NCBI GenBank assembly: GCA_947623455.1
Contig: OX392532.1
Coordinates: forward strand, 50,657,058 to 50,721,057
DNA: 64,000 nucleotides
DNA from: Mimachlamys varia
Taxonomy: Eukaryota > Mollusca > Bivalvia > Pectinida > Pectinidae
Reading direction: 5' to 3'
The translations under genes and the position numbers were made by a program. A model generated the notes under the pieces. The model worked only from the letters and a program-made list of their open reading frames with translations, had not been told where the DNA came from and made no database searches. Shown one piece after another: positions 1,605-49,300 of the stretch (positions are counted from its first letter, which is position 1; every line of letters starts with the position of its first letter).

Positions 1605-4600
1605 GTAATGTATATTATGTTCAATGGAGTAGATTTTGTTTTACGGTTCTTTCATTAAATAAAAGAACTGATTGAAACAATGTTTTGATTAACTTTGATG
1701 AACTAGCCAGATTTTCAAAATTTGAAAATTGTCGAAGTTTTGATTTTTGGGTAAAACTTATCTTAAATTTTTTAGAGTATACAATGAAGTTATTATTCTG
1801 AAATGGTTTGTTGTATATAGACCTCTTTTAAGGTGCTTCATGAAAATTGTATTTGGAAAATGATATAGTTCTGTACTCATGATCAGAGATTCAATCAATC
1901 TCCCTTTTAATGTTTAGTAAATCTATGTATCAGAGCTATACTCTTTAATAGTAAGAGACAATGGAAATGGAATCCGTTTTTAGGACAATTTGTATAATGA
2001 CAAGCAGTCATCAGTAATTCATACCTTTCATACATTTCTCGTTATATCGCCAAAATGTCTCTCCTGATTTAATAGGTCGTGTGTGCTATTGTTTCCATGA
2101 TATTAATTGTCTCCCCTGATTTAATAGGTAGTGTGAGGTATGGTTTCCATGATATTAATTGTCTCCCCTGATTTAATAGGTAGTGTGTGCTATGGTTTCC
2201 ATGATATTAATTGTCTCCCCTGATTTAATAGGTACATTGTAGTGTGTGCTAGGTTTCCATGATATTAATTGTCTCCCCTGATTTAATAGGTAGTGTGTGC
2301 TATAGTTTCCCTGATATCAATTGTCTCCCCTGATTTAATAGGTAGTGTGTGCTATGGTTTCCATGATATTAATTGTCTCCCCTGATTTAATACATTTGTA
2401 GGTAGTGTGTGCTAGGTTTCCATGATATTAATTGTCTCCCCTGATTTAATAGGTAGTGTGTGCTATGGTTTCCATGATATTAATTGTCTCCCCTGATTTA
2501 ATAGGTAGTGTGTGCTATGGTTTCCATGATATTAATTGTCTCCCCTGATTCAATAGGTACATTGTAGTGTGTGCTATGGTTTCCATGATATTAATTGTCT
2601 CCCCTGATTTAATAGGTAGTGTGTGCTATGGTTTCCATGATATTAATTGTCTCCCCTGATTTAATAGGTACATTGTAGTGTGTGCTATGGTTTCCATGAT
2701 ATTAATTGTCTTCCCTGATTTAATAGGTAGTGTGTGCTATGGTTTCCATGATATTAATTGTCTCCCCTGATTTAATAGGTACATTGTAGTGTGTGCTATG
2801 GTTTCCATGATATCAATTGTCTCCCCTGATTTAATAGGTAGTGTGTGCTATGGTTTCCATGATATTAATTGTCTCCCCTGATTTAATAGGTACATTGTAG
2901 TGTGTGCTATGGTTTCCATGATATCAATTGTCTCCCCTGATTTAATAGGTAGTGTGTGCTATGGTTTCCATGATATTAATTGTCTCCCCTGATTTAATAG
3001 TTAGTGTGTGCTATGGTTTCCCTGATATTAATTGTCTCCCCTGATTTAATACATTTGTAGGTAGTGTGTGCTATGGTTTCCATGATATTAATTGTGTCCC
3101 CTGATTTAATACATTTGTAGGTAGTGTGTGCTATGGTTTCCATGATATCAATTGTGTCCCCTGATTTAATACATTTGTAGGTAGTGTGTGCTAGGTTTCC
3201 ATGATATTAATTGTCTCCCCTGATTTAATAGGTAGTGTGTGCTATGGTTTCCCTGAAGTCGATTGTCTCCCCTGATTTAATAGGTAGTGTGTGCTATGGT
3301 TTCCATGATATTAATTGTCTCCCCTGATTTAATACATTTGTAGGTAGTGTGTGCTATGGTTTCCATGATATCAATTGTGTCCCCTGATTTAATACATTTG
3401 TAGGTAGTGTGTGCTAGGTTTCCATGATATTAATTGTCTCCCCTGATTTAATAGGTAGTGTGTGCTATGGTTTCCCTGAAGTTGATTGTCTCCCCTGATT
3501 TAATAGGTAGTGTGTGCTATGGTTTCAATGATATCAATTGCCTCCCCTGATTTAATAGGTCGTGTGTGCTATGGTTTCCATGATATTAATTGTCTCCCCT
3601 GATTTAATAGGTAGTGTGTGCTATGGTTTCCATGATATCAATTGTCTCCCCTGATTTAACAGGTCGTGTGTGCTATGGTTTCCCTGAGATCAATTGTCCC
3701 CCCTGATTTAACAGGTTGTGTGTGCTATGGTTTCCCTGAAGTCGATTGTCTCCCCTGACTATCTGGATGCCTATCTGCAATCCCTCGAGGCTGGCAAAGA
3801 ACAACCAGATGCTGAGAGGTAAATTTTGTAAATGTAAATTGTCAAGAAAATATATATATATCCGGCCTTCCCTGTACTTCCTGTGAAGCAGGGAACTTGA
3901 TTAAAGTATGGCAAGAACTACTTTTCAGGCTAAGTTAGTTGTCAAAAGACTTATGTTATATGTGTTGCCTGCCATATATATAATACGTAATATACACATT
4001 TTCATAGTACACAATTTGAAATTATACAGACCAGTTTAACTTTACTTCTAAATTCATAAATTAAAGGGGTTTTATGCACTTGACCCTTCGGCTTCTAGTA
4101 CTACAATAGTTTAGAAATTTTGGCCCCTTACATCACTCAGAAGAGTCCTAGGAGGATGAAACAGTTGTATGATGCAGTTTAATTCATTTTTTCGACCTAC
4201 TGTATCTATAACTCAATTTAAAAGGTGCAGCATACCCAGTATGTGTTTGTTACTTACCAATCTTTTATAACTTTTTATAAATTTTGTGAGACAGATCTTG
4301 GGTCTAATTTTTGCTTTATATCTACTTGTAAATTATGTTGGTTGCCATATCTACATATGTAACTGTAATGTTGTTCATGTTGGTTACCATGGTAACTTGA
4401 TATTTGTTGTCTTGGTTGCCATGGCTACCTAGAGAATGTTTATTTTGGTTGCTATGGGTACCTGTAGAATTATCTTGTTGTTGGTTACCATAATTTTAAC
4501 TTCATATTTGTTTGTCTTGGTTGCCATGGCTACCTAGAGAATTGTTTATGTTGGTTGCTATGGGTACCTGTATGATTGTTGCTGTTATTAGTTACCATTA

Positions 4601-7600
4601 TATTAACTTCACATTTGTTTGTCCTGGTTGCCATAGCTACCTGCCCACTGTATCAGAGTCCCAGGTAGATCCCACCGAAGTCAGTTTCACCAACAATCCT
4701 CAACGCAAGAAAATCTTCCAGGGGAAGACTTTTATATTTCTCCAGCAAAAACAGGTATAGTTTGGTGAATGACAAATTATCTCTCTGTAACAAGATATGA
4801 TATGATGTTTGACTCGGAAAAGAAATTAAAATATTCTGTATGAAATTATCAAAACAAAATTATTGCAGTTACCGTAATTTCTCGCGTATAGTGCGCATTT
4901 TTTTAGGGAAAATCAAAAGTGTCAAGAAGGGGGTGCGCACTATACGCAAAAACAAGCAAAAATCGTTCATTTTTCGGAGATTTTCAGAATGACCTGAAAT
5001 ATCCTTGCGGTAGTTAACAGTTGATATTTTGTTAAATAACTCCTGATTTGCATTATCTCAAAAGCCATACAATACGATAGGATCTGATAAATAAACTTGA
5101 GGAAAGTAGCCTGAACTTTCAGGTCGAGATTGTATCGACGCTACATCATCACAAGGCATATGGTGAAATATACCGAAGAATTAGATCGTTGTTAGCACTC
5201 TGATGTTAAAAATGCTGTTCTTGTGTAAAATAATTCTGGACAATTCAATCCTGACGGTAGAAATGTGTCAATAACGACTTGGAAGTTCGCCGGTTTGTGT
5301 ATTGCAAAGAGTGAAGGTCGCGTAATATTAATACCCGACAGTAACAAACAGAGTCGCAAACAAGCGAGTTGAACTGGTAACAATAACAGTTTGGAAAATA
5401 AACATTTAGGGACTCAAAACAGTCCAATACATCTCCATATTTTCTTTTCAAAGAAAAAAAGCTGAAATCACAAAGGATTTGTGTTTTTATGTCAAACAAA
5501 TTTGGCTGTATGCGGTCTTCGTCGGACCTGATTGAGTGACTGCTTTTAGTACACCCGTCAACCCAGTACACTGCCGACTTTATCGATGTCTAGACACACA
5601 GAGACTCCCAAATTGTTTATTTTATAGAAAACCTGGAAGATTAAGTCTTATGTAAGATTTAATTGAATAATTTATGAATGATAATATCGTGAAAACATCT
5701 TTTATTTTAATTATCTGTATTGGGCCTGTGCCTTCCCTGGTGTCAACAGATCTTCACCGTAACTCGTCAATCAATGTCAAGTCTAATTAACGAAGCATTG
5801 TGTTATGTTTTCAAAGTTTCCTATTCAAAGGTGTTTGTTTATATAACCTTTAATGGTGACTTACCTGATTGGTTCTATCATTCCGGCTTGACGTTTTTTT
5901 TTTTTCAAAAAAAGTTTGTTTCGATAACTTTTTTTTCCAAGATTTTTTTTTTCATTTTTGGACCCCAAAAAGTACCTGCGCACTACACGCGAGTGCGCAC
6001 TATACGCTAGAAATTACGGTATTAAATCTACATCAATACCCCACTTTCTCGATCCCGATTAACTTTAATATCCTTTATTTTTCGAACAGTATGTTTGGTC
6101 CCGACCGAGTTCGTACATATTCATTCAACCTTGGATCAACTAAATACCATGAACATTTTTTTTGTATTCCTCTAACTATTGATGATTAGGGCCCCACAAG
6201 TTCGAGTAAGTGGGGTTTAACTATATATCCTGTTAATAAGATCATATCCAGTCAGTAAAATGTGATATCTATTGACATACAGTGTACCCTCGTTATACCG
6301 CCACCTTTCGTCCACAGCAATTATGGCAGTATATCGAGGGTGATGATAGTATCGAATCATAAAAATTATAACCATGAATTAAATTGCATAATAGATTGCA
6401 TTTCCAACATTTTAATAAAAAACTAGCTTAGTATTATGTTGTCATATAGATCTACATTGGCACAAATTTATATCTGAAAATAGTTATTGATTTTCTTTTG
6501 CTGCATGCCATTCCAAATGGAGTGGCGGATAGCGGTATGCGTGTATGGCAAACTTAACAAGGGAATTATATAGGAGAGAAATCCGTTCTTGAGGTTTAGG
6601 TGGCAGTATGCAAGGGTGGCGGTAGATTCGGGTGACGAAAGGTCAAGGGCACACTGTATATTTGACATATTTGCTAGATTCCAAAAATTGTGCAAATATT
6701 CAGGTGAAAGATACAGGCCTTCTGGACCACTTGTTTAGTTTCAGAAGATGAGCCTGGCGGTAGAACTTGGGGGCGGGGTCCCACTTCTGATGGAGACCCG
6801 TCCCCAGGGGCGGGGTGAGGAGGCTGTCCTGACACAGAAGGAAACTGTGGTCATGAACTGTGGTCCTGAGGCTGGGGCTACAAACGAGTGGAGAGAATGG
6901 TACAGATATGCGGAGAAAACCCTCACCAGGTATAATCTATAAGGTTGTCTGTTTACTGGTCCTGGTACAGATACAGAGAGAAAACCCTGACTAGGTATAA
7001 TCTATAAGGTTGTCTGTTTACTGGTCCTGGTACAGATGCAGAGAGAAAACCCTGACTAGGTATAATCTATAAGGTTGTCTGTTTACTGGTCCTGGTACAG
7101 ATACAGAGAGAAAACCCTGACTAGGTGTAATCTATAAGGTTGTCTGTTTACTGGTCCTGGTACAGATACAGAGAGAAAACCCTGACTAGGTATAATCTGT
7201 AAGGTTGTCTGTTTACTGGTCCTGGTACAGATACGAGGAGAAAACCCTGACTAGGTATAATCTATAAGGTTGTCTGTTTACTGGTCCTGGTACAGATACA
7301 GAGAGAAAACCCTGACTAGGTATAATCTATAGGGTTGTCTGTTTACTGGTCCTGGTACAGATACAGAGAGAAAACCCTGACTAGGTATAATCTATAAGGT
7401 TGTCTGTTTACTGGTCCTGGTACAGATACAGAGAGAAAACCCTGACTAGGTATAATCTATAGGGTTGTCTGTTTACTGGTCCTGGTACAGATACGAGGAG
7501 AAAACCCTGACTAGGTATAATCTATAAGGTTGTCTGTTTACTGGTTCTGGTACAGATACGAGGAGAAAACCCTGACTAGGTATAATCTATAAGGTTGTGT

Positions 7601-10600
7601 ATTTACTGGTCCTGGTACGGATACGGGGAGAAAACCCTGACTAGGTATAATCTATAAGGTAGCTTTTTACTGGTCCTGGTACAGATACAGAGAGAAAACC
7701 CTGCCCAGGTATAATCTATATGGTTGTCTGTTTACTGGTCCTGGTACAGATACGGGGAGAAAACCCTGACTATGTATAATCTATAAGGTTATCTGTTTAC
7801 TGTTCCTGGAACAGATACAGAGAGAAAACCCTGACTATGTATAATCTATAAGGTTGTCTGTTTACTGGTCCTGGTACAGATACAGAGAGAAAACCCTGAC
7901 TAGGTATAATCTATAAGGTTGTCTGTTTACTGGTCCTGGTACAGATATGTGGAGAAAACCCTGACTAGGTATAATCTATAAGGTTGTCTGTTTACTGGTC
8001 CTGGTACAGATACAGAGAGAAAACCCTGACTAGGTATAATCTATAGGGTTGTCTGTTTACTGGTACAGATACGGGGAGAAAACCCTGACTAGGTATAATC
8101 TATAAGGTTGTCTATTTACTGGTCCTGGTACAGATACAGGGAGAAAACCCTCACTAGGTATAATCTATAAGGTTGTCTGTTTACTGGTCCTGGTACAGAT
8201 ACCGGGAGAAAACCCTGACTAGGTATAATCTATAAGGTTGTCTGTTTACTGGTACAGATACGGGGAGAAAACCCTCACTAGGTATAATCTATAAGGTTGT
8301 CTATTTACTGGTCCTGGTACAGATACACAGAGAAAACCCTGACTAGGTATAATGTATAAGGTTGTCTGTTTACTGGTCCTGGTACAGATACAGGGAGAAA
8401 ACCCTGACTAGGTATAATCTATAAGGTTGTCTGTTTACTGGTCCTGGTACAGATACGGAGAGAAAACCCTGACTAGGTATAATCTATAAGGTTGTCTGTT
8501 TACTGGTCCTGGTACAGATACACAGAGAAAACCCTGACTAGGTATAATCTATGAGGTTGTCTTTTTACTGGTCCTGGTACAGATACCGGGAGAAAACCCT
8601 GACTAGGTATAATCTATAAGGTTGTCTGTTTACTGGTCCTGGTACAGATACAGGGAGAAAACCCTGACTAGGTATAATCTATAAGGTTGTCTGTTTACTG
8701 GTCCTGGTACAGATACAGAGAGAAAACCCTGACTAGGTATAATCTATAGGGTTGTCTGTTTACTGGTACAGATACGGGGAGAAAACCCTCACTAGGTATA
8801 ATCTATAAGGTTGTCTATTTACTGGTCCTGGTACAGATACACAGAGAAAACCCTGACTAGGTATAATGTATAGGGTTGTCTGTTTACTGGTACAGATACG
8901 GGGAGAAAACCCTCACTAGGTATAATCTATAAGGTTGTCTATTTACTGGTCCTGGTACAGATACACAGAGAAAACCCTGACTAGGTATAATGTATAGGGT
9001 TGTCTGTTTACTGGTCCTGGTACAGATACACAGAGAAAACCCTGACTAGGTATGATATATAAGGTTGTCTGTTTACTGGTCCTGGTACAGATACAGGGAG
9101 AAAACCCTCACTAGGTATAATCTATAGGGTTGTCTGTTTACTGGTCCTGGTACAGATACGGGGAGAAAACCCTGACTAGGTATAAGTTATAGGGTTGTCT
9201 GTTTACTGGTCCTGGTACGGATACGGGGAGAAAACCCTGACTAGGTATAATCTATAAGGTAGCTTTTTACTGGTCCTGGTACAGATACAGAGAGAAAACC
9301 CTGCCCAGGTATAATCTATATGGTTGTCTGTTTACTGGTCCTGGTACAGATACGGGGAGAAAACCCTGACTATGTATAATCTATAAGGTTATCTGTTTAC
9401 TGTTCCTGGAACAGATACAGAGAGAAAACCCTGACTAGGTTTAATCTATAGGGTTGTCTGTTTACTGGTCCTGGTACGGATACGGGGAGAAAACCCTGAC
9501 TAGGTATAATCTATCAGGTTGTCTGTTTACTGGTCCTGGAACAGCTACAGAGAGAAAACCCTGTCTAGGTATAATCTATCAGGTTGTCTGTTTACTGGTC
9601 CCGGTACAGATACAGAGAGAAAACCCTGACTTAAGGTATAATCTATAAGGTTGTCTATTACTGGTCCTGGTACAGATACAGAGAGAAAACCCTGACTAGG
9701 TATAATCTATAAGGTTGTCTGTTTACTGGTCCTGGTACAGATACAGAGAGAAAACCCTGACCAGGTATAATCTATAAGGTTGTCTGTTTACTGGTCCTGG
9801 TACAGATACAGAGAGAAAACCCTGACTAGGTATAATCTATAAGGTTGTCTGTTTACTGGTTCTGTCACAGATACAGAGAGAAAACCCTGACTAGGTATAA
9901 TCTATAAGGTTGTCTGTTTACTGGTTCTGTCACAGATACAGAGAGAAAACCCTGACTAGGTATAATCTATAAAGTTGTCTGTTTACTGGTCCTAGTACAG
10001 ATACGGGGAGAAAACCCTGACTAGGTATAATCTATAAGGTTGTCTGTTTACTGGTGCTGGTACAGATACCGGGAGAAAACCCTGACTAGGTATAATCTAT
10101 AAGGTTGTCTGTTTACTGGTCCTGGTACAGATACGGGGAGAAAACCTTGACTAGGTATAATCTATAAGGTTGTCTGTTTACTGGTCCAGGTACAGATGCG
10201 GAGAGAAAACCCTGACTAGGTATAATCTATAAGGTTGTCTGTTTACTGGTCCCGGTACAGATACGGGAAGAAAACCCTGACTAGGTATAATCTATAAGGT
10301 TGTCTGTTTACTGGTCCTGGTACAGATACAGAGAGAAAACCCTGACTAGGTATAATCTATAAAGGTTGTCTTTTTACTGGTCCTGGTACAGATACAGAGA
10401 GAAAACCCTGACTAGGTATAATCTATAAGGTTGTCTTTTTACTGGTCCTGGTACAGATACCGGAAGAAAACCCTGACTAGGTATAATCTATAAGGTTGTC
10501 TGTTTACTGGTCCTGGTACACATACCGGAAGAAAACCCTGACTAGGTATAATCTATAAGGTTGTCTGTTTACTGGTCCTGGTACAGATACGGGGAGAAAA

Positions 10601-13600
10601 CCCTGACTAGGTATAATCTATAAGGTTGTCTGTGTACTGGTCCTGGTACAGATACAGAGAGAAAACCCTGACTAGGTATAATCTATAAGGTTGTCTGTGT
10701 ACTGGTCCTGGTACAGATACAGAGAGAAAACCCTGACTAGGTATAATCTATAAGGTTGTCTTTTTACTGGTCCTGGTACAGATACAGAGAGAAAACCCTG
10801 ACTAGGTATAATCTATAGGGTTGTCTGTTAACTGGTCCTGGTACAGATACGGAGAGAAAACCCTGACTAGGTATAATCTATAAGTTGTCTGTTTACTGGT
10901 CCTGGTATAGATACAGAGAGAAAACCCTGACTAGGTATAATCTATAAGGTTGTCTGTTTACTGGGCCTGGTACAGATACCGGGAGAAAACCCTGCTAGGT
11001 ATAATCTATAAGGTTGTCTGTTTACTGGTCCTGGTACAGATACAGAGAGAAAACCCTGACTAGGTATAATCTATAGGGTTGTCTGTTTACTGGTCCAGGT
11101 ACAGATACACAGAGAAAACCCTGACTAGGTATAATCTATAAGGCTGTCTGTTTACTGGTCCTGGTACAGATACGGAGAGAAAACCCTGACTAGGTATAAT
11201 CTAAAAGGCTGTCTGTTTACTGGTCCTGGTACAGATACAGAGAGAAAACCCTGACTAGGTATAATCTATAATGTTGTCTGTTTACTGGTCCTGGTACAGA
11301 TACAGAGAGAAAACCCTGACAAGATATATTCTATAATGTTGTCTGTTTACTGGTCCTGGTACAGATACAGAGAGAAAACCCTGACTAGGTATAATCTATA
11401 AGGTTGTGTGTTTACTGGTCCTGGTACAGATACAGAGAGAAAACCCTGACTAGGTATAATCTATAAAGATGTCTGTTTACTGGTCCTGGTACAGATACAG
11501 AGAGAAAACCCTGACTAGGTATAATCTATGAGGTTGTCTGTTTACTGGTCCTGGTACAGATACGGAGAGAAAACCCTGACTAGGTATAATCTATAAGGTT
11601 GTCTGTTTACTGGTCCTGGTACAGATACGGAGAGAAAACCCTGACTAGGTATAATGTATAAGGTTGTCTGTTTACTGGTCCTGGTACAGATACAGAGAGA
11701 AAACCCTGACTAGGTATAATGTATAAGGTTGTCTGTTTACTGGTCCTGGTACAGATACGGGTAGAAAACCCTGACTAGGTATAATCTATAAGGTTGTCTG
11801 TTTACTGGTCCTGGTACAGATACAGAGAGAAAACCCTGACTAGGTATAATCTATAAGGTTGTCTGTTTACTGGTACAGATACACAGAGAAAACCCTGACT
11901 AGGTATAATCTATAAAGTTGTCTGTTTACTGGTCCTGGTACAGATACAGAGAGAAAACCCTGACTAGGTATAATCTATAAGGTTGTCTGTTTACTGGTCC
12001 CGGTACAGATACACAGAGAAAACCCTGACTAGGTATAATCTATAAGGTTGTCTGTTTACTGGTCCTGGTACAGATACAGAGAGAAAACCCTGACTAGGTA
12101 TAACCTATAAGGTTGTCTGTTTACTGGTCCTGGTACAGATACGGGGAGAAAACCCTGACTAGGTATAATCTATAAGGTTGTCTGTTTACTGGTCCTGGTA
12201 CAGATACAGAGAGAAAACCCTGACTAGGTATAATCTATAAGGTTGTCTGTTTACTGGTTCTGGTACAGATACACAGAGAAAACCCTGACTAGGTATAATC
12301 TATGAGGTTGTCTGTTTACTGGTCCCGGTACAGATACAGAGAGAAAACCCTCACCAGGTATAATCTATAAGGTTGTCTGTTTACTGGTCAAATCACCAAA
12401 ATAGCATAGAGAGTTTCCATCATAGATAATCAATGGTTGTTCCGATACAGTCACTTTTGGTTTCTGCACCTTTGTAGTAAATAACATAGCAAATTTGAAG
12501 CCATGAAGATAATAGGCTATCTGATAGGTTTCGGGTAAACAAACCTAACCAATAGCTGGGCTGATGTCCATTGAAGATTACATGGGAGCTACACTTTACT
12601 TCAAAGCCAGCCAATTTCAAATTTATGTGATAACGAGATCTTTTTGATTTAAATTAAACAACAAACTAGATTTCTTGTCTGATCAATTTGGTGGTCACAC
12701 TCAGCCTTTGATTTTGCTAGGATATTATTCCAGAGGTACAGAGAGTGCAAATAATTATCGAGGATGTAGTAAATTCAATGTATTTCGTTGAATCAAACCT
12801 GCAATGGTTTTAAAATGTATAATTGTAATGTTTTTGCTTCAGACACAAAAGACACATGAGTCAAGATGCAGAGCTAGGATTGGCTGTGTTACACTGTGAT
12901 ACAGAACAGTACTGTAATCCTATTGTAGACTTCGGTAAGTCACAAACCCCTGTGTTGATTTTGGTAAATATAAATTGTGTGTCACAAACCCCTGTGTTGA
13001 TTTTAGTAAATATAAATTGTGTGTCACAAACCCCTGTGTTGATTTTGGTAAATATAAATTGTGTGTCACAAACCCCTGTGTTGATTTTAGTAAATATAAA
13101 TTGTGTGTCACAAACCCCTGTGTTGATTTTAGTAAATATAAATTGTGTGTCACAAACCCCTGTGTTGATTTTGGTAAATATAAATTATATGTCACAAACC
13201 CCTGTGTTGATTTTGGCAAATATAAATTGTATTCCATAAATCCCTTTGTTGATTTTGGTAAATATAAATTGTATTTCATAAATCCCTTTGTTGATTTTAG
13301 TAAATATAAATTGTATTTCACAAACCCCTGTGTTGATTTTAGTTAATATAAATTGTATGTCACAAACCCCTGTGTTGATTTTAGTAAATATAAATTGTCA
13401 GTCACAAACCCCTGTGTTGATTTTGGTAAATATAAATTGTATTTCACAAACCCCTGTGTTGATTTTGGTAAATATAAATTGTATTTCACAAACCCCTGTG
13501 TTGATTTTGGTAAATATAAATTGTATTTCACAAACCCCTGTGTTGATTTTGGTAAATATAAATTGTATTTCATAAATCCCTTTGTTGATTTTAGTAAATA

Positions 13601-16600
13601 TAAATTGTATTTCACAAACCCCTGTGTTGATTTTAGTTAATATAAATTGTATGTCACAAACCCCTGTGTTGATTTTAGTAAATATAAATTGTCAGTCACA
13701 AACCCCTGTGTTGATTTTGGTAAATATAAATTGTATTTCACAAACCCCTGTGTTGATTTTGGTAAATATAAATTGTATTTCACAAACCCCTGTGTTGATT
13801 TTGGTAAATATAAATTGTATTTCACAAACCCCTGTGTTGATTTTGGTAAATATAAATTGTATTTCACAAATCCCTGTGTTGGTTTAGTAAGTATTGTGTC
13901 ACAAACCCCTGTGTTGATTTAAGTTCTATGTCAACATTAAAGGTCTGTGACACTGTTGACAATTTTAGGAATAAAAAGCTTGTGTACAAGATATCTTATG
14001 AATCCCTGCTCACTATGAGTTTATTTTATTACAAAAAAGTTCGGGAAAAAAAAGAGAAAATAAAGAGCTTGTCACACTTCGACAGTAAGACATAAATCCT
14101 TTATATTAAATATATCATTTTCTGTTATAGCCAGTCAGACAATGTCCCGACTTCCAAGTCAGTCCCTGTCCCAGGCCCCTGTGTTTACCCAGACAGAGTA
14201 AGTATAAATATAGTCACATGATTCCAAGCCAGTCCCTGTCCCAGGCCTCTGTGTTCACACAGACGGAGTAAGTATAAATATAGTCACATGATTCCAAGTC
14301 AGTCTCTGTCCCAGGCCCCTGTGTTCACACAGACGGAGTAAGTATAAATATAGTCACATGAGTCCAAGCCAGTCCCTGTCCCAGGCCCCTGTGTTCACAC
14401 AGAGAGTAAGTATAAAGGTAGTCACATGATTCCAAGTCAGTCCCTGTCCCAGGCCCCTGTGTTCACCCAGGGAGTAAGTATAAATATAGTCACATGATTC
14501 CAGGCCAGTCCCTGTCCCAGGCCCCTGTGTTCACCCAGGGAGTAAGTATAAATATAGTCACATGATTCCAGGCCAGTCCTTGTCCCAGGCCCCTGTGTTC
14601 ACACAGACGGAGTAAGTATAAATATAGTCACATGATTCCAAGCCAGTCCCTGTCCCAGGCCCCTGTGTTCACACAGACGGACTAAGTTTAAATATAGTCA
14701 CATGATTCCAAGCCAGTCCCTGTCCCAGGCCCCTGTGTTCACCCAGAGGGAGTAAGTATAAATATAGTCACATGATTCCAAGCCAGTCCCTGTCCCAGGC
14801 CCCTGTGTTCACACAGACGGAGTAAGTATAAATATAGTCACTTGATTCCAAGCCAGTCCTTGTCTCAGGCCCCTGTGTTCACACAGACGGAGTAAGTATA
14901 AATAATATAGTCACATGATTCCAGGCCAGTCCTTGTCCCAGGCCCCTGTGTTCACCCAGAGAGTAAGTATAAATATAATCACATGATTCCAGGCCAGTCC
15001 TTGTCTCAGGCCCCTGTGTTCACACAGAAAGGGTAAGTATAAATATATAGTCACATGATTCCAAGTCAGTTCCCTTTCTCGCTTCCAGTGTTCAACTTCA
15101 TTTGAGATTTAGATTAAGTTCTTCCTTCAACCGTTATAACAAAGATAAAAATAATTTGCATATATCGGAATTGGGCAACAAGAATAAAAGTTTTTCTATA
15201 AAGTATTTCAGTCAAATGAAAATATTCTTCAGAGTGCATTGAATTTCACAGTCAAAATTATCCAGCTTGAAAAAGTTTCAGAATCTTTGCACAATTTTGC
15301 ATCGGCTTACAAGCTGTTTAATATACATATAATGATTAAAACTCCATATCCTTGCAATAGCTTAGGTTGTATGAACACAGCTATGATGATAAATCTCAAC
15401 AGTATTCAAGTATGTGAATAGTCATAAGTGTCAACCTCTGAATCCTCCAACGAGGGAGATCTCCCTCTTTCCATATTTCAAATGAGGGAGAAAGTGTGTG
15501 AAATGTGACTGAAACTGCATTGCTCAATTCGTCTTTCCCTTATTATGTATCAAAATAACTTCACAAAGTATTCAATTGATCCAGACATGGCCATTACACA
15601 TATCCTGCAGTAACTAGGAGACCATTTGACCACAAGATGTAGATTTTGAGTTATTGTGGGTTTGGATTTAAATGAAGGAGATGTTGAGGGAGATTGGTAA
15701 TGGTCAAAATGAGGGAGTCTCCCTCCTAATGAGGGAGGGTTGACAGGTTTGTGAATAGTGCTTATTCAGCAATGGAAATATCAGTATTGAAAAGACATGA
15801 ACACAAAAAGGTTAGATGTTTAAGTGTAACAGCAGTGATCAATCTACAATTATTTTTCATCAGTCCTTTTCAATTGTATTGCCAAAATAATGGGTCCCAC
15901 AATTTTAAATCTAACCATTTCTGAAAATTCAATGGGTCCTTTCATAATTCTTTGAGTACAGTACTAGGAATGCGCACGTAGATTTATCACTGTATCAGTA
16001 ATCCAGCTTAATGACTGTTTTTCAACTAGAACTGAAAACAGGAGAGTGAAACAAGAGAAGACAACTCCGCCACCAACTTCATCAAAGGCTGCCAGTGTAA
16101 AACCGTCTCCTGCACCTGGCGGTGTAAAAGACAGAGAGTCACAAAGAACAAAGGTGCCGTCTCAAGGAGACCAAGACACGGCTACAACCTCTAAAGCCAG
16201 AGGTCAAAGTTCACAAATAGACAAATCACAACATTCCAGTCATAAGCAAAAATCACGATCACCTTCCCCTAGAAAAACCCAGGATAAATCGAACTTGTCA
16301 CCCCTCAGACGGAGCCCAAGGTCAAGGTCACCTGCACCTGCAGATTTAAGGTCAAGGTCACCATCACCAGTTCCTGTTACAAGTAAAACTTCCAGTTTGA
16401 GGTCAAGGCCACCAGCAACTCAAGATTCGAGTTCAACAAGGTTAAGGTCACCAGCACCTCCAGATTCAAGGTCAACAAGGTCAAGGTCACCAGCACCTGT
16501 AGTTTCAATGACAAGGTCACCAGTATCTCCAGTCTCTAAGAAAACAAATTTACAATCATCTCTAGTTCCTGAAATTATGGCCAGTAACTCAGCATCCCAA

Positions 16601-19600: not shown

Positions 19601-22037
19601 GAATTTGCTTCCACTTTTTATAGTGTTACTGATATCCAATTGAATTGAAATTTGGCATATATTTGCATGTAAAGTTACTGATATCATCATACTGAAATTT
19701 AGAGGAAATTTATTTGCAGGTTCTGCTGTTTTAGGCTAAAAACATGTGAATTTTGAAAATTGACGTTAGCGTCTACTTTTTATAGTATTATTGATATGTT
19801 TAATTGAAACTTGGAAAAGTTACTGATATCATCTTGCTGTATGTATTTTGAAGGGAGACATATTGTATTAGTACTGGTTCTGGTTCTTCTAATAATTCTT
19901 GTCCAGACCACTAAACCGTTGAAGATATCTTGACGAAACTTACAGTATATATGCATCACCTGAAGCAGATGTGCATTGCACTGTCATTATGTCACTGTGA
20001 CCTTGACCTTATGGTCAGAGGTCAAATAAGTGTGATTTTTTCAATAATTCTTGTCCAGGCGATAACTTTTAAACCATTAAAGATATATTGATAACCTTTT
20101 TAGTATACCTGCATCACCAATAGACAATGTGATAACTTTATAGTTTTGTTTTAGGCTGGTGTGGCAGGCCTAGACCGACTTCCCAACATCATCGGAGGGA
20201 GTGATCTCGTTCCACATGCTGCGTCACAGCGCCGCGAACTTGACGAGTGGTTTAAGGAAGCTCAGGAGGTGGGTTATCTACCCTTGTCTGGGTTATCTAC
20301 CCTTGTCTTGGTAGCACCATATGCAGTGAAAAAAACTGCTGAAATTATTCGAAGACTAATTTTGTGTCAGACATGCACGAAAACAAAATGTTGTCAGTAA
20401 AGTATAATTTCATATTTCCACATAATTTTAGTTTTCATGGTATTCCTTCTCACAAATCTTCAGTTTGTTTATGTTGGCAAAGATAAATCACGATCAATGA
20501 ACCAAGAAGTCTTTTCAAAACTATGGTGTTAAATTGATATTTCTTAGATTAAGAAATATATATGGTAGTAGTTTATAGATGATAAACAGTTTATCACATT
20601 GTATTTCCAGGTTTGTCGTTCGAACAATTTCCTCATCGCTCACACATGTATAAAGTCTCGAGTCCAACTGCGGAGGCCTCTCCATTTTATCCATGTGCTC
20701 GTGATGAGAAAATTGTTCTCATGACAAACCCTGAAAATGCAGTGTAATAATCTATATAAGTATCTTTAATGTCACAAAGGTTAAAGGTCAAGGTCACAGG
20801 CACAATAGAAGGCTGGATAAACTATTTTCCCTTGAACTTGCCCCTTCCTTATTAGTAGAAGATTTTAGCATACCCTAGTCCTAATGGCTAAAGTGACAGA
20901 CGCAACAGAAGACTAAAGATGCCACAATCTTGTTTTTTTGGGGGGTGTATGGATATGCTGCCCCTGGCAGCTCTTTCTGGTACTATTTAGAAACGTACGT
21001 ACAAAAATGTATGTTCAAAGTCAATGTTTTTTTTAACAGAAATTTTCAAAATACAGTAACACTCCACTTACTCAAACTCATGGAGACCTGATCAATAGTT
21101 TGAGGAATTTACACTGTATTCGAATAATCTGAATTGGTTGAATATGTAAAAACTTAGTTGGGACCAAATAAATTTTTTGGAGAATGGGGGTTTATCAAGT
21201 AAACCGAGTTCGAATAATTAGTGGGGCTTTACTGTATTTCAAAATGTTGTGAAACAGTGTCCCCAACAAAGGGTTTCCTATATATAAGTGCTATAATAAC
21301 TAGTAACTAAAGGCTCCTTACTTATCTTCTTTTGTAATAAAACCAGCGAGGAAATAATGTCCCTTGTTAAACAAGAAAATAGCTTACCAATACCTGTATG
21401 CAGTACAAAATAATAATAGGGATCTTGACTTTAAATTCCGATCTTCTTCTTTTTTTTTTTATCAATGCAGGCAGAAAGTCAGCAGTCGGAAGCAAATAGA
21501 CGAGCTCAGGAACTCTTTGAGTAAGTTTGTAGTCGGGTTCCGTAATGTGTAAATTTAAGGATTTTATTTTAATGTTGTACGAATTGAAGTGCATGTATTC
21601 TGTTCTCTGTTACAATGTCCTCATCTCCAAGTTGACGGGACCGTGGGAATACTTTTTATTATGAAGGTATTTGAGCTAAGTGAAGTTGAATGTTTAGTGC
21701 AAGTTTGGCAAGGACTAATAAAATACTTCGAATTAAACAAAGTGTTCAAGTAGTTAGAGATAATTAACATGGTTCAACTGTACATTCCAATCTTGTTATC
21801 GCGAACTTGTGTCGCTGGAAGACTGGTCTGACAGTCCCACTCAATCAAGATAAGGAGGTTCCACTGTATGTATTGTGGGTGTCCAATTCCTCATTGTGTT
21901 AATCTGTTAAAATTTGTTAATTAGCTAAAAATAGAATCCACTCAAATAAGAAACCTACAATGTATGTTTAAATTGTATTTTTCCTTTTCTCTTTCAGATG
22001 GGAGCCTCGATCTCATTCTAATAATAGATCTCGCTGA
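1445..22037 (+). CDS. NBN: Nibrin (Nbs1), 12 exons, 5' partial
   Basis: Nibrin is the regulatory subunit of the nuclear Mre11-Rad50-Nbs1 complex that senses double-strand breaks and recruits ATM. Twelve exons (1445-1604, 3715-3818, 4637-4754, 6745-6929, 12843-12934, 14131-14197, 16030-17365, 17704-17766, 19165-19362, 20155-20268, 21471-21520, 21998-22037) join in phase across every GT..AG intron and give 841 residues plus stop. Order seen: BRCT1 (YEPLV, WSRHC, VSPDYLDAYL), linker ending KIFQGKTFIFL, BRCT2 (LGGGVPLL to LGLAVLHCDTEQYCNP), a 445-residue Ser/Pro/Lys/Asp-rich disordered exon, the Mre11-binding motif KNFKKFKK, LPNIIGGSDL, and a C-terminal tail with ELFEWEP resembling the vertebrate ATM-binding end. 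The FHA domain is upstream of position 1. The coding sequence looks intact; the odd part is the introns, which hold minisatellites built from the splice junctions themselves. Confidence 0.95.
2061..3714 (+). repeat. 52-bp minisatellite of a 3' splice site, ~30 copies
   Basis: The unit is 52 bp: ctgatttaatag, then gtagtgtgtgctatgg, then tttccatgatattaattg and tctccc. The final unit continues directly into the exon at 3715, whose acceptor and first bases (taacag|gttgtgtgtgctatgg, tttccctgaag) are the same sequence. I counted 30 copies of the gtgtgctat core before the exon. Some units carry a 6-7 bp insertion (gtacattgtag or acatttgtagg). Copies at about 3250, 3475 and 3690 carry the exon-like cctgaag. 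Nearly every copy keeps TAATAG|GT, a usable acceptor with a short pyrimidine run. Confidence 0.97.
3715..3818 (+). CDS. NBN: NBN exon b: second half of BRCT1
   Basis: The exon reads VVCAMVSLKSIVSPDY then LDAYLQSLEAGKEQPDAE and ends AG|gtaaat in phase 2, matching the nibrin stretch that follows VTIK in the family. The acceptor is tgatttaacag. The first ~45 bases of this exon and the acceptor before it are the source sequence of the 52-bp tandem array immediately upstream. Confidence 0.93.
4066..4252 (+). mobile_element. Dispersed MITE-like repeat, copy 1
   Basis: Begins aaaggggttttatgcac and ends aaaggtgcagcatacc...gtgtttgttac. The order (gttttatgca, gaagagtcctaggaggatga, aacagttgtatgatgcag, aaaggtgcagcat) recurs at 37530-37635 and, inverted, at 39880-40035 and 50778-50975. 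No coding capacity; length suggests a non-autonomous element. Confidence 0.75.
4377..4636 (+). repeat. ~105-bp repeat running into an exon acceptor
   Basis: About 2.5 units; ttggttgccatggctacc occurs at about 4413 and 4518 and, as ctggttgccatagctacc, at about 4623, where it contains the acceptor and first bases of the exon at 4637. Only the last unit has AG at the junction (ccatag); the earlier two read ccatgg. Confidence 0.8.
4637..4754 (+). CDS. NBN: NBN exon c: BRCT1-BRCT2 linker
   Basis: After ccatag, one base completes a Ser codon; then YLPTVSESQVDPTEV, and NPQRKKIFQGKTFIFLQQKQ, then gtatag in phase 0. The R-K-x-I-F-x-G-K-T-F-I-F-L block is among the most conserved pieces of nibrin and opens BRCT2. 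The acceptor lies in the last unit of a short upstream repeat. Confidence 0.93.
4872..6019. mobile_element. 1.15-kb TIR DNA transposon relic
   Basis: Terminal inverted repeats ccgtaatttctcgcgtatag/tgcgca at the left and tgcgcactatacgctagaaa/ttacgg at the right, each flanked by TA. The TA target and the absence of a transposase frame suggest a non-autonomous element of the Tc1/mariner or pogo type (inference). A second inner copy of the end sequence sits at 5978-6008. Confidence 0.8.
6040..6222. mobile_element. Degenerate TIR element
   Basis: The left end accccactttctcgatccc and right end gttcgagtaagtggggttta are imperfect inverted repeats of the kind also seen at 21054-21234. It lies directly beside the element ending at 6019. 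Confidence 0.5.
6280..6656. mobile_element. 377-bp pogo/Tigger-like MITE
   Basis: Left end cagtgtaccctcgttatacc and right end gtcaagggcacactg are inverted repeats flanked by TA on both sides. CAGTG...CCTCGTTATACC is typical of pogo/Tigger termini (from memory). No open frame of note. Confidence 0.7.
6745..6929 (+). CDS. NBN: NBN exon d: BRCT2 core
   Basis: It reads KMSLAVELGGGVPLLMETRP onward to NEWREWYRYAEKTLT and ends AG|gtataa in phase 2. The GGG turn after a hydrophobic strand fits BRCT2. The acceptor gtttagtttcag directly follows a 35-bp relic of an interspersed repeat tail. The last ~34 bases of the exon plus its donor are the seed of the 5.5-kb minisatellite that follows. Confidence 0.93.
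6896..12390 (+). repeat. 65-bp minisatellite of a 5' splice site, ~84 copies
   Basis: The 65-bp unit is tggtacagatacagagagaa, aaccctgactag, gtataatctataaggttgtc, tgtttactggtcc. The first copy is the end of NBN exon d itself (tggtacagatatgcggagaa, aaccctcaccag|gtataa), so each unit carries the last ~34 exon bases plus the donor. Array length over unit length gives about 84 copies. The last copy (12325-12390) has the exon-like ccctcaccag. A block of 226 bp at 7611-7836 is repeated exactly at 9211-9436, showing block duplication inside the array. Confidence 0.97.
12391..12842. other. Intron remainder between array and exon
   Basis: Unique AT-rich sequence with no repeat; the normal part of the intron before the exon at 12843. 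Confidence 0.4.
12843..12934 (+). CDS. NBN: NBN exon e: end of BRCT2
   Basis: Acceptor tttgcttcag; the first base completes an Arg codon, then HKRHMSQDAELGLAVLHC and DTEQYCNPIVDF, ending in phase 1 before gtaagt. It matches the vertebrate stretch with E-I-G-L-A-V and Y-C-(D/N)-P. The exon is 92 bp. Its 3' end and donor seed the 42-bp array that follows. Confidence 0.93.
12935..13925 (+). repeat. 42-bp minisatellite of a 5' splice site, ~23 copies
   Basis: The unit is cacaaacccctgtgttgatt, ttggtaaatataaattgtgt, gt. It starts at the donor of exon e: cctattgtagacttcg|gtaagtcacaaac in the exon-intron junction aligns with cctgtgttgattttg|gtaaat of the unit. A seven-unit block of 294 bp is duplicated (13281-13574 and 13575-13868). 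Because 42 is a multiple of three, open frames run through it in several frames; these are not genes. Confidence 0.95.
14131..14197 (+). CDS. NBN: NBN exon f: small linker exon
   Basis: Acceptor tctgttatag; two bases complete an Ala codon, then SQTMSRLPSQSLSQAPVFTQ-TE, ending ACAGA|gtaagt in phase 2. The sequence is compatible with the post-BRCT2 linker in which vertebrate nibrin has a Ser-Leu-Ser-Gln run. The call rests on exact phase continuity on both sides. The 3' half and donor are repeated twelve times downstream. Confidence 0.85.
14198..15060 (+). repeat. ~70-bp minisatellite of a 5' splice site, 12 copies
   Basis: The unit is gagtaagtataaatatagtc, acatgattccaagccagtcc, ctgtcccaggcccctgtgtt, cacacagacg. 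The second half is the 3' part of NBN exon f (cccaggcccctgtgtttacc, cagacaga) and the first half its donor gtaagt and intron start. I counted 12 copies after the exon by the caggcccctgtgtt core. Nearly all keep a perfect GTAAGT. Confidence 0.96.
15429..15745. mobile_element. MITE-like element with gagggag termini
   Basis: The left end tgtcaacctctgaatcctcc and right end gagggagggttgaca are imperfect inverted repeats; internal gagggagatctccctc and gagggagtctccctc palindromes sit next to each end. About 317 bp, no coding. Confidence 0.6.
16030..17365 (+). CDS. NBN: NBN exon g: long disordered exon
   Basis: A 1336-bp exon opened by the acceptor tttttcaactag and closed before gtaaag in phase 0. 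The first base completes a Glu codon, then TENRRVKQEKTTPPPTSSKA. The product has no globular look. Its first half is full of Ser-Pro and Arg-Ser motifs (RSRSPAP-type, about residues 85-170 of the exon); its second half has acidic serine clusters (DDSDEDYGF, DSDSEPES, DSDSDSG, DDSSDEED) between Lys/Arg patches such as KRKRGG. This is the usual character of the nibrin middle region, which holds phosphorylation sites and nuclear localisation signals. AGGTCA recurs about 19 times in it. Confidence 0.9.
17704..17766 (+). CDS. NBN: NBN exon h: 21-codon exon
   Basis: The acceptor tctgaattgtag and donor gtatgg bound RSRSPTPNIPGFLSAVRGQNE. It is phase 0 on both sides and so could be skipped without a frameshift. 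There is no domain match; inclusion rests on phase, splice signals and composition like the preceding exon. Confidence 0.75.
17860..18260. repeat. Dispersed repeat with inverted arms
   Basis: aatgtaatatggaatttatt at about 17886 is inverted at about 17982 (aataatttccatattacatt). The part 18098-18245 (ctactttgacggtaagattt, cactactgagacaa, gtgtaatacc, agttatgtgataaa) recurs at about 51828-51988. Confidence 0.55.
18800..19036. mobile_element. 237-bp MITE
   Basis: About 35-bp inverted termini: gggccaagttgttcaaaagg then tgattagcttaatca at the left, and tgattaagctaatcaccttt then ggaacaactgggccc at the right. No coding. It sits 128 bp upstream of NBN exon i. Confidence 0.8.
19165..19362 (+). CDS. 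NBN: NBN exon i: Mre11-binding motif
   Basis: From acceptor tattttgcag the exon reads NENNYHGNYIKEEGVPTDLV, then LVTRRPSQPQNSPERSGG, and ends GSIVKNFKKFKK before gtatac, phase 0. KNFKKFKK is identical to the core of the conserved Mre11-interaction motif of animal nibrin. NBN genes of other animals also split just after this motif (from memory). Confidence 0.95.
19429..20110. repeat. Diverged ~160-bp repeats in intron
   Basis: caattgaattgaaacttgg recurs with changes at about 19487, 19637 and 19800, and acttttt-atagt-ttactgata segments recur between them. The following stretch (tcttgtccagg...taaaccgtt...gatatcttga) recurs within 19895-20100. Old interspersed sequence, no genes. Confidence 0.5.
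20155..20268 (+). CDS. NBN: NBN exon j: LPNIIGGSDL segment
   Basis: The acceptor ttttgttttag is followed by AGVAGLDRLPNIIGGSDLVP then HAASQRRELDEWFKEAQE, ending before gtgggt in phase 0. The family motif L-P-x-I-I-G-G-S-D-L and the E-x-W helix are clear. Confidence 0.95.
21054..21234. mobile_element. 181-bp TA-flanked MITE
   Basis: Left end cagtaacactccacttactc and right end attagtggggctttactg are inverted repeats flanked by TA. The form CAGT-aa-cCCCACTtA is shared with the decayed element at 6040-6222. Confidence 0.7.
21471..21520 (+). CDS. NBN: NBN exon k: C-terminal helix
   Basis: A polypyrimidine tract (tcttcttcttttttttttt) and gcag precede AESQQSEANRRAQELF, ending GA|gtaagt in phase 2. 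It leads into the Leu-Phe of the C-terminal motif. Confidence 0.88.
21998..22037 (+). CDS. NBN: NBN exon l: C terminus and stop
   Basis: Acceptor ttctctttcag; the first base completes Glu, then WEPRSHSNNRSR and TGA at 22035-22037. Combined with the preceding exon the end reads ELFEWEPRSHS, comparable with the vertebrate DLFRYNPY tail that binds ATM: an acidic-Leu-Phe, an aromatic and a Pro keep the same spacing. Confidence 0.88.
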
Positions 22038-22197: not shown

Positions 22198-22984
22198 TGA
22201 GTTTGAATACGAAGTGATCATCTATGTTCAAGGATACTACATAAATTACTGCGACAAATATAATTACCAAGTTACCGAATTCAAAAATTTTCTATAAGTA
22301 CAGAAAATGTTATCCCATCTTAAACAAATAATGTTGTATTTGATACAATATGACATTGTTCAAGCTTTTCTATGCAAGCAGTTTAAATACTTCTAATCAT
22401 TACTTTTTAGAAGTTAATTTGAGAAGATATCAATTCACATAATGTGTTGCATCGATTCATGTATGAATTTGTTCGCAAATAAAACTCAAATTCAAAATGA
22501 CCGCAGATTTACAACAAAATAATTTGTATGTAAATTCAAATTTGTATTGATGTTTGTTTTATCAATTGAAAATAAATTGTTAAATCTTCACATGTCTAAG
22601 TTCTTTGTATCAAGTGAGATCATCACTTCATTTGTTGTAGGCATTGCTTGAAATTAGGTTTTATTCCATGAATTAAAATTAATGGACAATTCTGCAGCTA
22701 CATGTGTATATATATGTATACAGCTGTACGTGTAGTTTGTATAGAAAGTTCCACCATGAAACACTCTGTTTCTTCAAACTTTGAAATTGAGTCCTCTTTA
22801 CCTAAGGATGATCCAGACCCAATAAGTTGCAAATCCACTTCGCCATTCAGAACTAGAGTATAAAGGTTAGCCGTAACATTCATATTTAACATGGAGCCCT
22901 AGCGGGCTTCATTCAATATGGATGTAACAGCTGACCTTTCATAGCACTATGAAAGTTGAAAAAATGACTTTCAATCCCTATATA
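22198..22984. other. NBN 3' flank, no further gene
   Basis: Very AT-rich, with extra AATAAA hexamers at about 22480 and 22571. The open frame on the minus strand at 22698-22892 is not recognised and lacks support. Confidence 0.4.
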
Positions 22985-23510
22985 AAGGAACATGTGTAGA
23001 TGTGCATGCAACATTTCTTTTCTCAAAATTATGGCTGCTTTCGTAACTGGTCACTATAACCAGGGTTTCTGTAGAAAAAGTTTGTCTGGACAACTCTAAA
23101 ACCGCTAATTGGCCAATTTCAATGAAACTTCACACAGATATAAAGGACCATATGTAGATGTGCATGCAACGTTTCCTTTCTCAAAATTATGGTTGCTGTG
23201 GTAACCAGTCACTATAATAAACAGGTTTTCTGTAGAAAAAGTGTGTCCTGACAACTCCTCTTAAACCGCTTGGCCAATTTCAATGAAACTTCACACAGAT
23301 ATAAAGGACCATGTTTAGATGTGCATGCAACTTGTCTTTTCTTAATATTATGGTTGCTATGGTAACCAGTCACTATAAACAGGTTTTCCGATTGAACATT
23401 TTTCCAGACATTTAACTCCTCCTAAACTGTTTATACAATTTCAAAAGAGCTTCACACAAATATAAAGGAAGATATGTAGACTTTGAGATTTACATTTGCA
23501 TGCAAAATTC
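22985..23510. repeat. ~159-bp tandem repeat, 3.3 copies
   Basis: gtagatgtgcatgcaac recurs at about 22996, 23155 and 23314, each followed by a tggttgct-ggtaac-agtcactataa block and a ccaatttcaatgaaacttca block. Probably an expanded interspersed repeat. Confidence 0.75.
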
Positions 23511-46300: not shown

Positions 46301-49300
46301 TGTCTTGTCGCCAGATCCTGTGCATTTTTATTTATTACTGTAATTTATATGTATTTCCGAAAATGAAAATATTGTTTAAAAAATTATCAGTGAAAACGTT
46401 TATAGAAAACGCCATTGTCACAAAGGTAAATTTTCAGTGTTACTATTAAGATTAAGGAATAATGCATTCCAATTTTAAGATTAGAGAACAGCATAAAAAT
46501 AAATGACACATCGAAACCTCTAAAGAACCCTGAAATCCACCGTATGTAAACATGATTACATCTAGGGTTCATAAAAATGATGTTTTATCAAATAAGCCGA
46601 TTGCATGTTGGTCGAAGTTTAAAGTGTTAGGTGATGTTCTAAGCTAATCTCATGATGTTCAATTTTGCTTGCTGGCAAAAATTTAATTGCCGAAAACAAA
46701 ACGACAGAAGTATTTTTTCTCCTATATTCGTGTAGTAATTCCCCTATCTAAGATGGTTGTAACCGTCTATGCATGCGTTTTCTGGGTCAACGTTATAACT
46801 TAAATGTCGCGAAGCAATAATGCGTTGGAAATAAAACGTTCAGAAGATTTTGTGGATCATGGTTAAAACGGCGCTTTGTTTAACGAACCGGAACTAGGAG
46901 TAAAAGGATTCATTAGTAAATCTTGTTACCATGCTCCGGGGCCGTTTCCGGTTGCATCTAGCCGACATTTTAGAACCGGTGGATTTAAGGCGTAAGATAT
47001 ATGTTTTAATTCTTGTTTAGTATCTATCGACAAGCACTTGTGTACTACAGCGATGTCGATTTAGCATTTGAAGACACTATTAAGACTGGGCCAGATCTAT
47101 TTTACGGATCGTTAAGCAGGGCGTAATGGTCACGTAAAACTAATGGCCTACACTCGATTGATATACTGATTATAAAGATACTGGTGGACAAATCATTGGC
47201 TGTCGAGCTCTCTTTAGTGTGTATTTCTCTATCGCATATTTCTACAGTTCAGCAGTAGTAAATGCGTATGTAATGTAAGTGATACGATTTCTATGTTAAT
47301 GTCAAATACTATTGTTTTGCTTGTCCAATATTATTTAATACTATTTCCGATAAAGAAATTCCGTATCAGGCAATAATCATTTTTCCTGCCTTGGACAGCA
47401 CGAGGACGAGTTTACCTTTTCCTTAACATTGTTCCCGAATTGAAATATCCGAAATAAAATTGTTCCGGAATTGAAATATACGAAATAAAAGGGTAGTCCA
47501 GTCTCTGAAACGTTTTATTTAATTGATTCTAACGATATAGAAGTTATCTTATCCAAGTCGTGTACTTCTTGAGAGGTAGCGTTTTAGACAAACCAAAACA
47601 AATCTTCACATTTCTTTCCACCATACACCTATTATACGCCATTGGCGTTTTTTACGTACATGTTAACTACAGTGTATTTATAGTTTTACTTTTGTTTTTG
47701 TTTCTTTTTTTTGTGCAGATAAAGAATTAGTGAAAATTTCACGGCACATAGTTTCGTCAGTTATATAAATCTGTAAGTAAATAACTATAATGTACAAAAA
47801 CCTTCAAAATCAAAAATGCACATGGTCTTAAAACAAAAGAATGACTAATAAAACAAAATACGTATTAGACAGGTAGACTAAAACCAATATAATTAATGAC
47901 TGAAACGATTAAGCGTAATTGATATGGACTTCTTAAGATCGTGCAGAAAAATCAATAAATATATAATGTGATATTATAAATCGATTACATGTGCGATGAA
48001 GATGGATTATCGCTCATTTACACATTTTTTAAACATTATAAATATATCATTTTTTTAAACCCAACTAACCATACTAACAACATGGTACAGTTGTGGTATC
48101 GCACAACGCACCAAAAACTGCGTGCGTGCATCGTGCATACATCGTGCATACATCGTTCGCCCATGGTGCGCCCAACCGGGCGATCTAAAGATCCTGCGTT
48201 TATGTGTGCGATTAAATCGCACAAACGCACGATTTGGTACAATTGGTCGATACATATTACGGAATGAAAAACATATGGAACCCTCTTGTCCAAAAAACTA
48301 TTTAAATTCGCATCATATTTATTGGGATTATGTCAATTTAACAATATACTGTAAACTGTATTACATTGATCATAAGACAGCCAAATGCGGGTTGAGCTAC
48401 CAGGTATCAGAATATGTAAATAACATGCCGGAGTTTTACCTTTCCCGTGTGCGGCGATACGCTACGGCAGCCATTACCGAGCGACCGTTTTGAAAACAAA
48501 CTTGACTCTTATATAATCAGTTATTTGAAAAACCCTCCCCTCCCCAACACCTTACCTGTGTTTTCACACCTAGGCGAGTGTTGTAAGTGCCCCGGGCCAG
48601 AGATATCTACATATATGTACAGGTACAGTTTATAACTTGGTAAAACCAGAGACGTATACGTCTCTGGTAAAACTGGCCATATTTACTTGAATGAGAACTT
48701 GCATTTCAATATGAGTTGAAAGTTTACATACATGTGTCTATTTGGTTTGTTTCTAAAACTACAGAAAGACTATTATTAATTTTTAGAAATATATAGATAG
48801 AACTATCAGCTAATGTAAATAGTTAAAATATAGAAATATGTTTAAAACAACTAGCGCAAAACCGTATATATTGTTCAACCATTTCTAAATTTATATCAAC
48901 CACGATTGTCATCGCACAATGTTAGTCTATCGTGCGCCCACATATGCGTTAGAAATAATCGCCCAGGATCGCATCGTTCGCACATCGTGCATATACCGTT
49001 CGCCCATCGTGCGCCCACCGCACATCGTGTAACGTTGTGCGATCCCACGACTGTATTATCAAATTATTGCATTGTTTAAGATGAGATAAACTCTCACCCC
49101 GACAGGATGTACGCTATCAGATGGATTAACTTTGTATGCCACGTTCAAACTCGATCGTTCAAAGGTTTTATCACATCTCTAAGTTATCATCTCCATGCGT
49201 GTTTTTTACAGGTGTCCGTTCATTGAACTTGCCTGATTAATAAACTTAACAAAACACAAACGAGGAAATTTGTCTTTACCTGTAGTAGACTTAACAAAAC

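Follow-up and report, generated by a model that had tools for sequence, protein, structure and literature searches.

Minisatellites at splice junctions of the nibrin gene NBN and of SLC6-like genes in the scallop Mimachlamys varia

The plus-strand gene in a stretch of 64,000 nucleotides on chromosome 6 of the scallop Mimachlamys varia (C6:50657058-50721057, referred to here as the window and numbered from its first base) is NBN, the nibrin gene, the first exons of which lie outside the window. Several NBN introns hold long tandem arrays that touch the neighbouring exon. We regard these arrays as very probably splice-junction minisatellites, or 'mirages', in which a duplicated exon-intron boundary has expanded inside the intron while the copy next to the exon is still the one that is spliced. 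An original prediction, made from the sequence alone, had described arrays built from the exon edge and splice site in the introns after exons a, d, e, and f, and a weaker version after exon b. This observation was real in part: it held for three arrays and weakly for a fourth, and for the array after exon e only the position was right.

Arrays and exon edges in NBN

To set the NBN exon edges, we used the open frame, the GT-AG dinucleotides, and an alignment with the nibrins of four scallops and an abalone. The twelve exons give a continuous reading frame of 841 amino acids plus stop, and GT-AG is present at 11 of 11 introns. The translation matches the Pfam families Nbs1_C (3.5e-21) and NIBRIN_BRCT_II (2.9e-18), and the top of its 16 relatives is the nibrin of Mizuhopecten yessoensis, with 77% identity over 100% of the query. 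The nibrin alignment is free of gaps at the a/b, b/c, d/e, and e/f junctions. A 2-residue gap at c/d led us to place the start of exon d 6 nt further upstream, at 6739. At the f/g junction (14197 / 16030), Mizuhopecten agrees with the placed junction, and Ylistrum, Argopecten, and Pecten are without 4 residues. Because these residues are missing in three of the four scallops, the f/g junction, which adjoins array f, may have shifted between species. Undisturbed splicing of the mRNA would agree with both the open frame and the homologs.

Tandem Repeats Finder (TRF), one of the checks for which the original prediction had asked, revealed five arrays in NBN introns that touch a junction (a/b, b/c, d, e, and f), and returned the unit lengths of 52, 65, 42, and 70 bp that had been claimed. 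The arrays and the exons that they adjoin, all on the plus strand, are as follows.

2056..3758, plus strand: array a/b, TRF, 52-bp unit, ~31 copies; the end of intron a (acceptor) and the first ~44 nt of exon b.
3715..3818 (104 nt), plus strand: NBN exon b, open frame, GT-AG, gap-free against four scallop nibrins; the final copy of array a/b makes up its first bases.
4371..4642, plus strand: array b/c (weak), TRF, 33 or 107 bp, 5.8 or 2.4 copies; reaches ~5-7 nt into exon c.
4637..4754 (118 nt), plus strand: NBN exon c, open frame, GT-AG, nibrin alignment.
6739..6929 (191 nt), plus strand: NBN exon d, open frame, start shifted 6 nt by the nibrin alignment; donor side common to array d.
6898..12389, plus strand: array d, TRF, 65-bp unit, ~85 copies; the last ~31 nt of exon d, the donor, and the start of the intron.
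12843..12934 (92 nt), plus strand: NBN exon e, open frame, GT-AG, nibrin alignment.
12935..13920, plus strand: array e, TRF, 42-bp unit, ~24 copies; begins at the first intron base.
14131..14197 (67 nt), plus strand: NBN exon f, open frame, GT-AG, nibrin alignment.
14152..15075, plus strand: array f, TRF, 70-bp unit, ~13 copies; the last ~45 nt of exon f, the donor, and the start of the intron.

The claim that the repeat unit contains the splice junction was examined by aligning the authentic junction to the tripled unit, and by repeating the alignment with 2000 shuffled units per array. For array a/b the score was 113, against 27 for the best of the shuffles; the corresponding values were 54 and 28 for array d, and 96 and 25 for array f. 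The claim thus holds far above the shuffled level for the acceptor array a/b and for the donor arrays d and f. The exon part of the unit comes to ~44, 31, and 45 nt in a/b, d, and f, respectively, and to 23, 16, and 45 nt by a stricter stop rule, the stricter lengths being shorter in a/b and d because exon and array differ there at several bases. The splice dinucleotide is kept in nearly every copy found, as AG in 29 of 29 copies in a/b and as GT in 82 of 83 copies in d and 11 of 12 in f. The chance that all five NBN arrays would touch a junction is ~5e-4 if their seeds fall uniformly in the collapsed introns, a figure that was computed after the pattern had been seen and that counts b/c and e as touching.

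Farther downstream in the gene, a short duplication at the donor of exon j is possibly a young case of a junction array.

20155-20268, plus strand: NBN exon j, open frame, GT-AG.
20270..20312, plus strand: 19-bp duplication, 2.3 copies, TRF and by eye; begins at the exon j donor.

Two further repeats were observed in and next to NBN. Coding exon g contains a 39-bp repeat at 16400-16498 (2.5 copies, 13 codons per unit), and over this stretch of the protein the nibrins of the four other scallops are shorter or have gaps. Directly downstream of the gene, at 22980-23480, lies a 161-bp tandem array of 2.5-3 copies.

Junction arrays in SLC6-like genes

The minus strand of the window carries an SLC6-like gene (PF00209 matches), in which one array crosses a donor.

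49244..50365, minus strand: SLC6-like array, TRF, 46-bp unit, ~24 copies; crosses the donor of exon 50360-50463, with ~6 nt of exon.

The junction matches this unit over 13 nt, which was reached by 0.45% of shuffles. Junction arrays are not specific to NBN. We counted 11 of them in SLC6-like genes, including the one in the window; their units are unrelated, and 6 lie at acceptors and 5 at donors. Both boundaries are affected in NBN as well, with a/b on the acceptor side and d and f on the donor side. In one SLC6-like example, the acceptor and ~41 nt of exon stand in 18 copies. Three further arrays mark the range of sizes, the first two being separate junction arrays of the same gene.

L047 1-4654: SLC6-like, 35 bp, ~133 copies, acceptor plus ~25 nt of exon; runs off the fetched stretch.
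L047 6077-8954: same SLC6-like gene, 50 bp, ~57 copies, donor plus ~44 nt of exon.
C7_8290000:4161-4285: SLC6-like, a minimal case with 2.1 copies of 59 bp across the donor.

The weakest of the 11, C8_7905000:1155-1361, extends ~5 nt into its exon, and the 22-mer search described below detected no copies in it.

The frequency of such arrays was estimated from the 30 best SLC6 loci and 8 further regions, all of which were fetched before the arrays in them had been seen (128.7 kb, 125 called junctions, 36 arrays). Nine of the 36 arrays span a junction, against 2.47 expected when each array is collapsed to one unit and placed uniformly (P ~3e-4). The full set of 25 blocks (215 kb, 112 exons, 188 junctions) includes the window and regions picked with knowledge of their arrays; there, 11 of 50 filtered arrays lie at junctions against 3.2 expected (P ~2e-4), and 10 of 44 against 2.9 if the window is left out. 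A cruder permutation that keeps array lengths gave a mean of 2.4 and a maximum of 7 in 1000 permutations, compared with the 12 cases counted before one was dropped. An initial, approximate test covered 38 loci (8 FHA, 30 SLC6), among them overlapping loci and one locus (L024) dropped later, and found 6 of 26 arrays at junctions against 1.5 (P 0.005). The label of junction array was assigned after reading each case, and acceptor and donor cases were gone through letter by letter. By these counts, junction arrays appear to be frequent in this genome in one gene family at least.

Four candidates were removed or left out on reading. The donor called for C19_9471191:1697-1831 was wrong, the true donor lying ~85 nt before the array, and the count went from 12 to 11. 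The array of L024 ends ~30 nt before the acceptor. Arrays at C11_48263500:6067 and C7_39386000:4920 are 15 and 74 nt away, respectively.

Origin of the arrays and alternative explanations

We infer the first duplication step, the mode of expansion, and the choice of the spliced copy as follows. A short tandem duplication (units are mostly 30-85 bp) would once have taken in the edge of an exon together with the adjoining splice site. Additional copies would have landed on the intron side, to expand and contract afterwards as a minisatellite does. Splicing would stay with the copy adjacent to the exon, probably through exon definition, the recognition of a short exon as a unit, and the protein would remain unchanged while the intron lengthens. 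The NBN exons that bear arrays are 67 to 191 nt long, a length that would suit recognition of the exon as a unit. Because a duplication across a junction leaves the exon-adjacent junction intact, it can be neutral, and the arrays would be tolerated because splicing keeps that copy. In the clear cases the unit is particular to its array and is partly its own exon, suggesting that each array arose on the spot. Separate origins by tandem duplication across the boundary, as the original prediction had proposed for all of the NBN arrays, are well supported for a/b, d, and f, but the support is weak for b/c and absent for e. The same origin is also well supported for the SLC6-like arrays, the units of which are unrelated.

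The copies themselves bear on how splicing could tolerate the arrays. Copies were found in 14 of the 15 arrays (one array gave none), and 389 of the total of 399 contain the splice dinucleotide; the copies were located by similarity to a 22-mer that itself includes the dinucleotide, and the neighbouring columns appear mostly about as conserved. We scored the copies of 12 arrays with a generic splice-site matrix, and many equalled or exceeded the authentic site (82/131, 37/56, 15/17, 8/10, and 7/8). Use of a distal site brings a stop in every compatible frame for 81 of the 101 copies examined. Since many copies equal the authentic site and distal use brings stops, it would have to be position that decides correct splicing. 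In the ten arrays with enough copies, the identity of the copies did not change significantly with their distance from the exon (rho from -0.52 to 0.52, P from 0.12 to 0.89; few copies in several of them), leaving unsupported the idea that a conserved exon re-seeds its array. In array f, all four differences between the consensus and exon f are silent in the coding frame of the exon. This is not so in other arrays, and there is no general pattern.

Several results weigh against the junction origin, or against its being common. Array e starts directly at 12935, the first base of the intron, and to that extent is flush with its exon as had been claimed, but its unit shows no significant resemblance to the edge of the exon: the alignment scores 15, which 16% of the 2000 shuffles matched. 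With its junction alignment at the shuffled level and no significant exon content, array e was rejected as a junction-derived array. The weaker version after exon b corresponds to the TRF array at 4371-4642, but that array takes in only ~5-7 exon bases, and neither of the 2 copies found has the acceptor AG. Few copies match the authentic site in other scored arrays (9/29, 5/83, 3/12, and 0/3). Outside NBN, the exons were called by tblastn and a simple splice-site score. The SLC6 family was picked because the array of the window lies in it, and is not a random family. Eight FHA loci yielded 1 array by the same filter, and none at a junction; two myosin regions (14 kb, 13 exon matches) yielded 2 arrays, which lie 88 and 128 nt away from the closest match edge, the edges being unrefined. 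The frequency outside NBN thus rests mainly on one gene family.

Some of these results are what one would see if the genome were simply rich in intronic minisatellites, some of which abut or enter exons, with nothing special about junctions. Arrays are indeed common (39 TRF rows in the 64 kb of the window, and 50 filtered arrays in 215 kb), array e fits such an account, and so do the FHA and myosin samples, which are free of junction arrays. Chance placement is nevertheless unlikely in our view, because it would have to produce the excess of 9/36 over 2.47 and of 11/50 over 3.2, and because the units contain their own exon edge.

Another possibility is that the copies are functional, being retained to strengthen or tune splicing, or serving in part as alternative exons. 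The near-universal presence of the splice dinucleotides would be in line with this, as would array f, in which each copy can be read by eye as 54 nt without a stop, flanked by AG and GT and keeping the phase of exon f. However, the 22-mer used to find the copies already contains the dinucleotide, and the columns beside it appear mostly about as well kept; distal use leads to stops in most copies; and in array f the spacer is 16 nt and the acceptor is without a pyrimidine tract, again by eye. We consider a function of the copies improbable, and more so than chance placement.

Arrays that belong to mobile elements, or to introner-like insertions carrying splice sites, should show one unit at many loci. 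For unit d this was not the case: in a search of the genome (975,302,275 bases, 71 contigs) that skipped very common words, 42 of its 43 matches lie inside array d and the other is only 35 bp long. The NBN arrays differ in unit at each junction, and each junction array has its own unit, which is partly its own exon. Another array of the window (39029-39908) resembles, by eye, part of a dispersed element; even so, a mobile origin of the junction arrays is very improbable. The least probable explanation, to which we give almost no weight, is an assembly artefact: long arrays are prone to error, but the copies differ from one another throughout, the structure recurs at many independent loci, and the available part of the assembly report gives a QV of 64.4 (PMC11252643). 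Splice-junction duplication followed by minisatellite expansion remains the explanation that we favour.

The dispersed element and a nearby inverted repeat are recorded here as observations on the window.

38540-38640: near-perfect inverted repeat around AAAGTTTCTTTCTGGTGG, by eye.
39029-39908: 74-bp tandem array in an apparent dispersed element (motif GTAACACACACATATACTG...), a minisatellite of a kind other than the junction arrays; single copies related to the element lie at about 50780-50930 and about 62680.

Relation to lancelet mirages and significance

The original prediction had held the pattern to be undescribed in any gene, which was wrong as to its kind. The available portions of two papers describe the same kind of structure in lancelet (amphioxus) genes under the name of mirages (PMC3087553, PMC3902484). 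The examples there are the globins BflGb6 and BflGb9 and Adh3 (PMC3087553), to which the second paper adds similar PGBD5 repeats, citing troponin C as well (PMC3902484). The BflGb6 mirage has 3 and 6 copies in two haplotypes, and normal splicing and instability were tested in lancelet (PMC3087553, PMC3902484). Like the mirages, arrays a/b, d, and f and the SLC6 cases have a unit that spans the boundary, which array e does not and b/c does only marginally. The scallop arrays likewise lie at the 5' or 3' boundary of the intron and hold many copies with AG or GT. They differ in belonging to another phylum, in reaching ~133 copies, and in affecting several introns of one gene, and they are known here from the sequence of one haplotype.

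Two other systems share part of this picture, as far as the accessible text of each report goes. Human variable internal tandem repeats in segmental-duplication genes are also minisatellites at exon-intron boundaries that alter gene structure, but they bring novel introns and exon changes in recent primate paralogs, with ~4 units on average, whereas in the scallop an existing intron grows and the protein is apparently unchanged (PMC2812944). Intron gain by tandem genomic duplication likewise takes a duplication involving splice signals as the source of intron sequence; there the intron is new, whereas the scallop introns exist already and grow from their edge (PMC4974935). Intronic minisatellites have also been described in earthworm metallothionein and abalone TSSK1, with no junction origin stated in the parts of those descriptions that were available. 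A literature search that included mollusc, bivalve, and scallop topics found no report of junction minisatellites in molluscs, most subscription journals being outside its coverage.

Taken together, these data make it well supported that the scallop arrays are real and belong to a known kind of structure, here in a phylum that is new for it. As far as the literature found goes, what is new is the phylum, the size of up to ~133 copies, and how frequent the arrays appear to be; the novel part is the scale. A larger claim would be that introns in scallops grow in large part through junction minisatellites, across the whole genome, with several per cent of junctions carrying or having carried arrays, and with junctions as preferred points for tandem duplications to start or be kept. 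To this we would give slightly less than an even chance. If it were true, the genome would provide natural tests by the thousand, each with a single correct site to be picked out from dozens of equal ones.

The lancelet papers, in the portions available, treat mirages one gene at a time; the finding of 9 arrays at 125 sampled SLC6 junctions in a mollusc suggests that introns have grown by this route repeatedly, in animals only distantly related. Genes of this kind could reveal how the spliceosome settles on one site when dozens of copies are equally strong, and they would also serve to test whether tandem duplication is drawn to splice junctions or just tolerated there.

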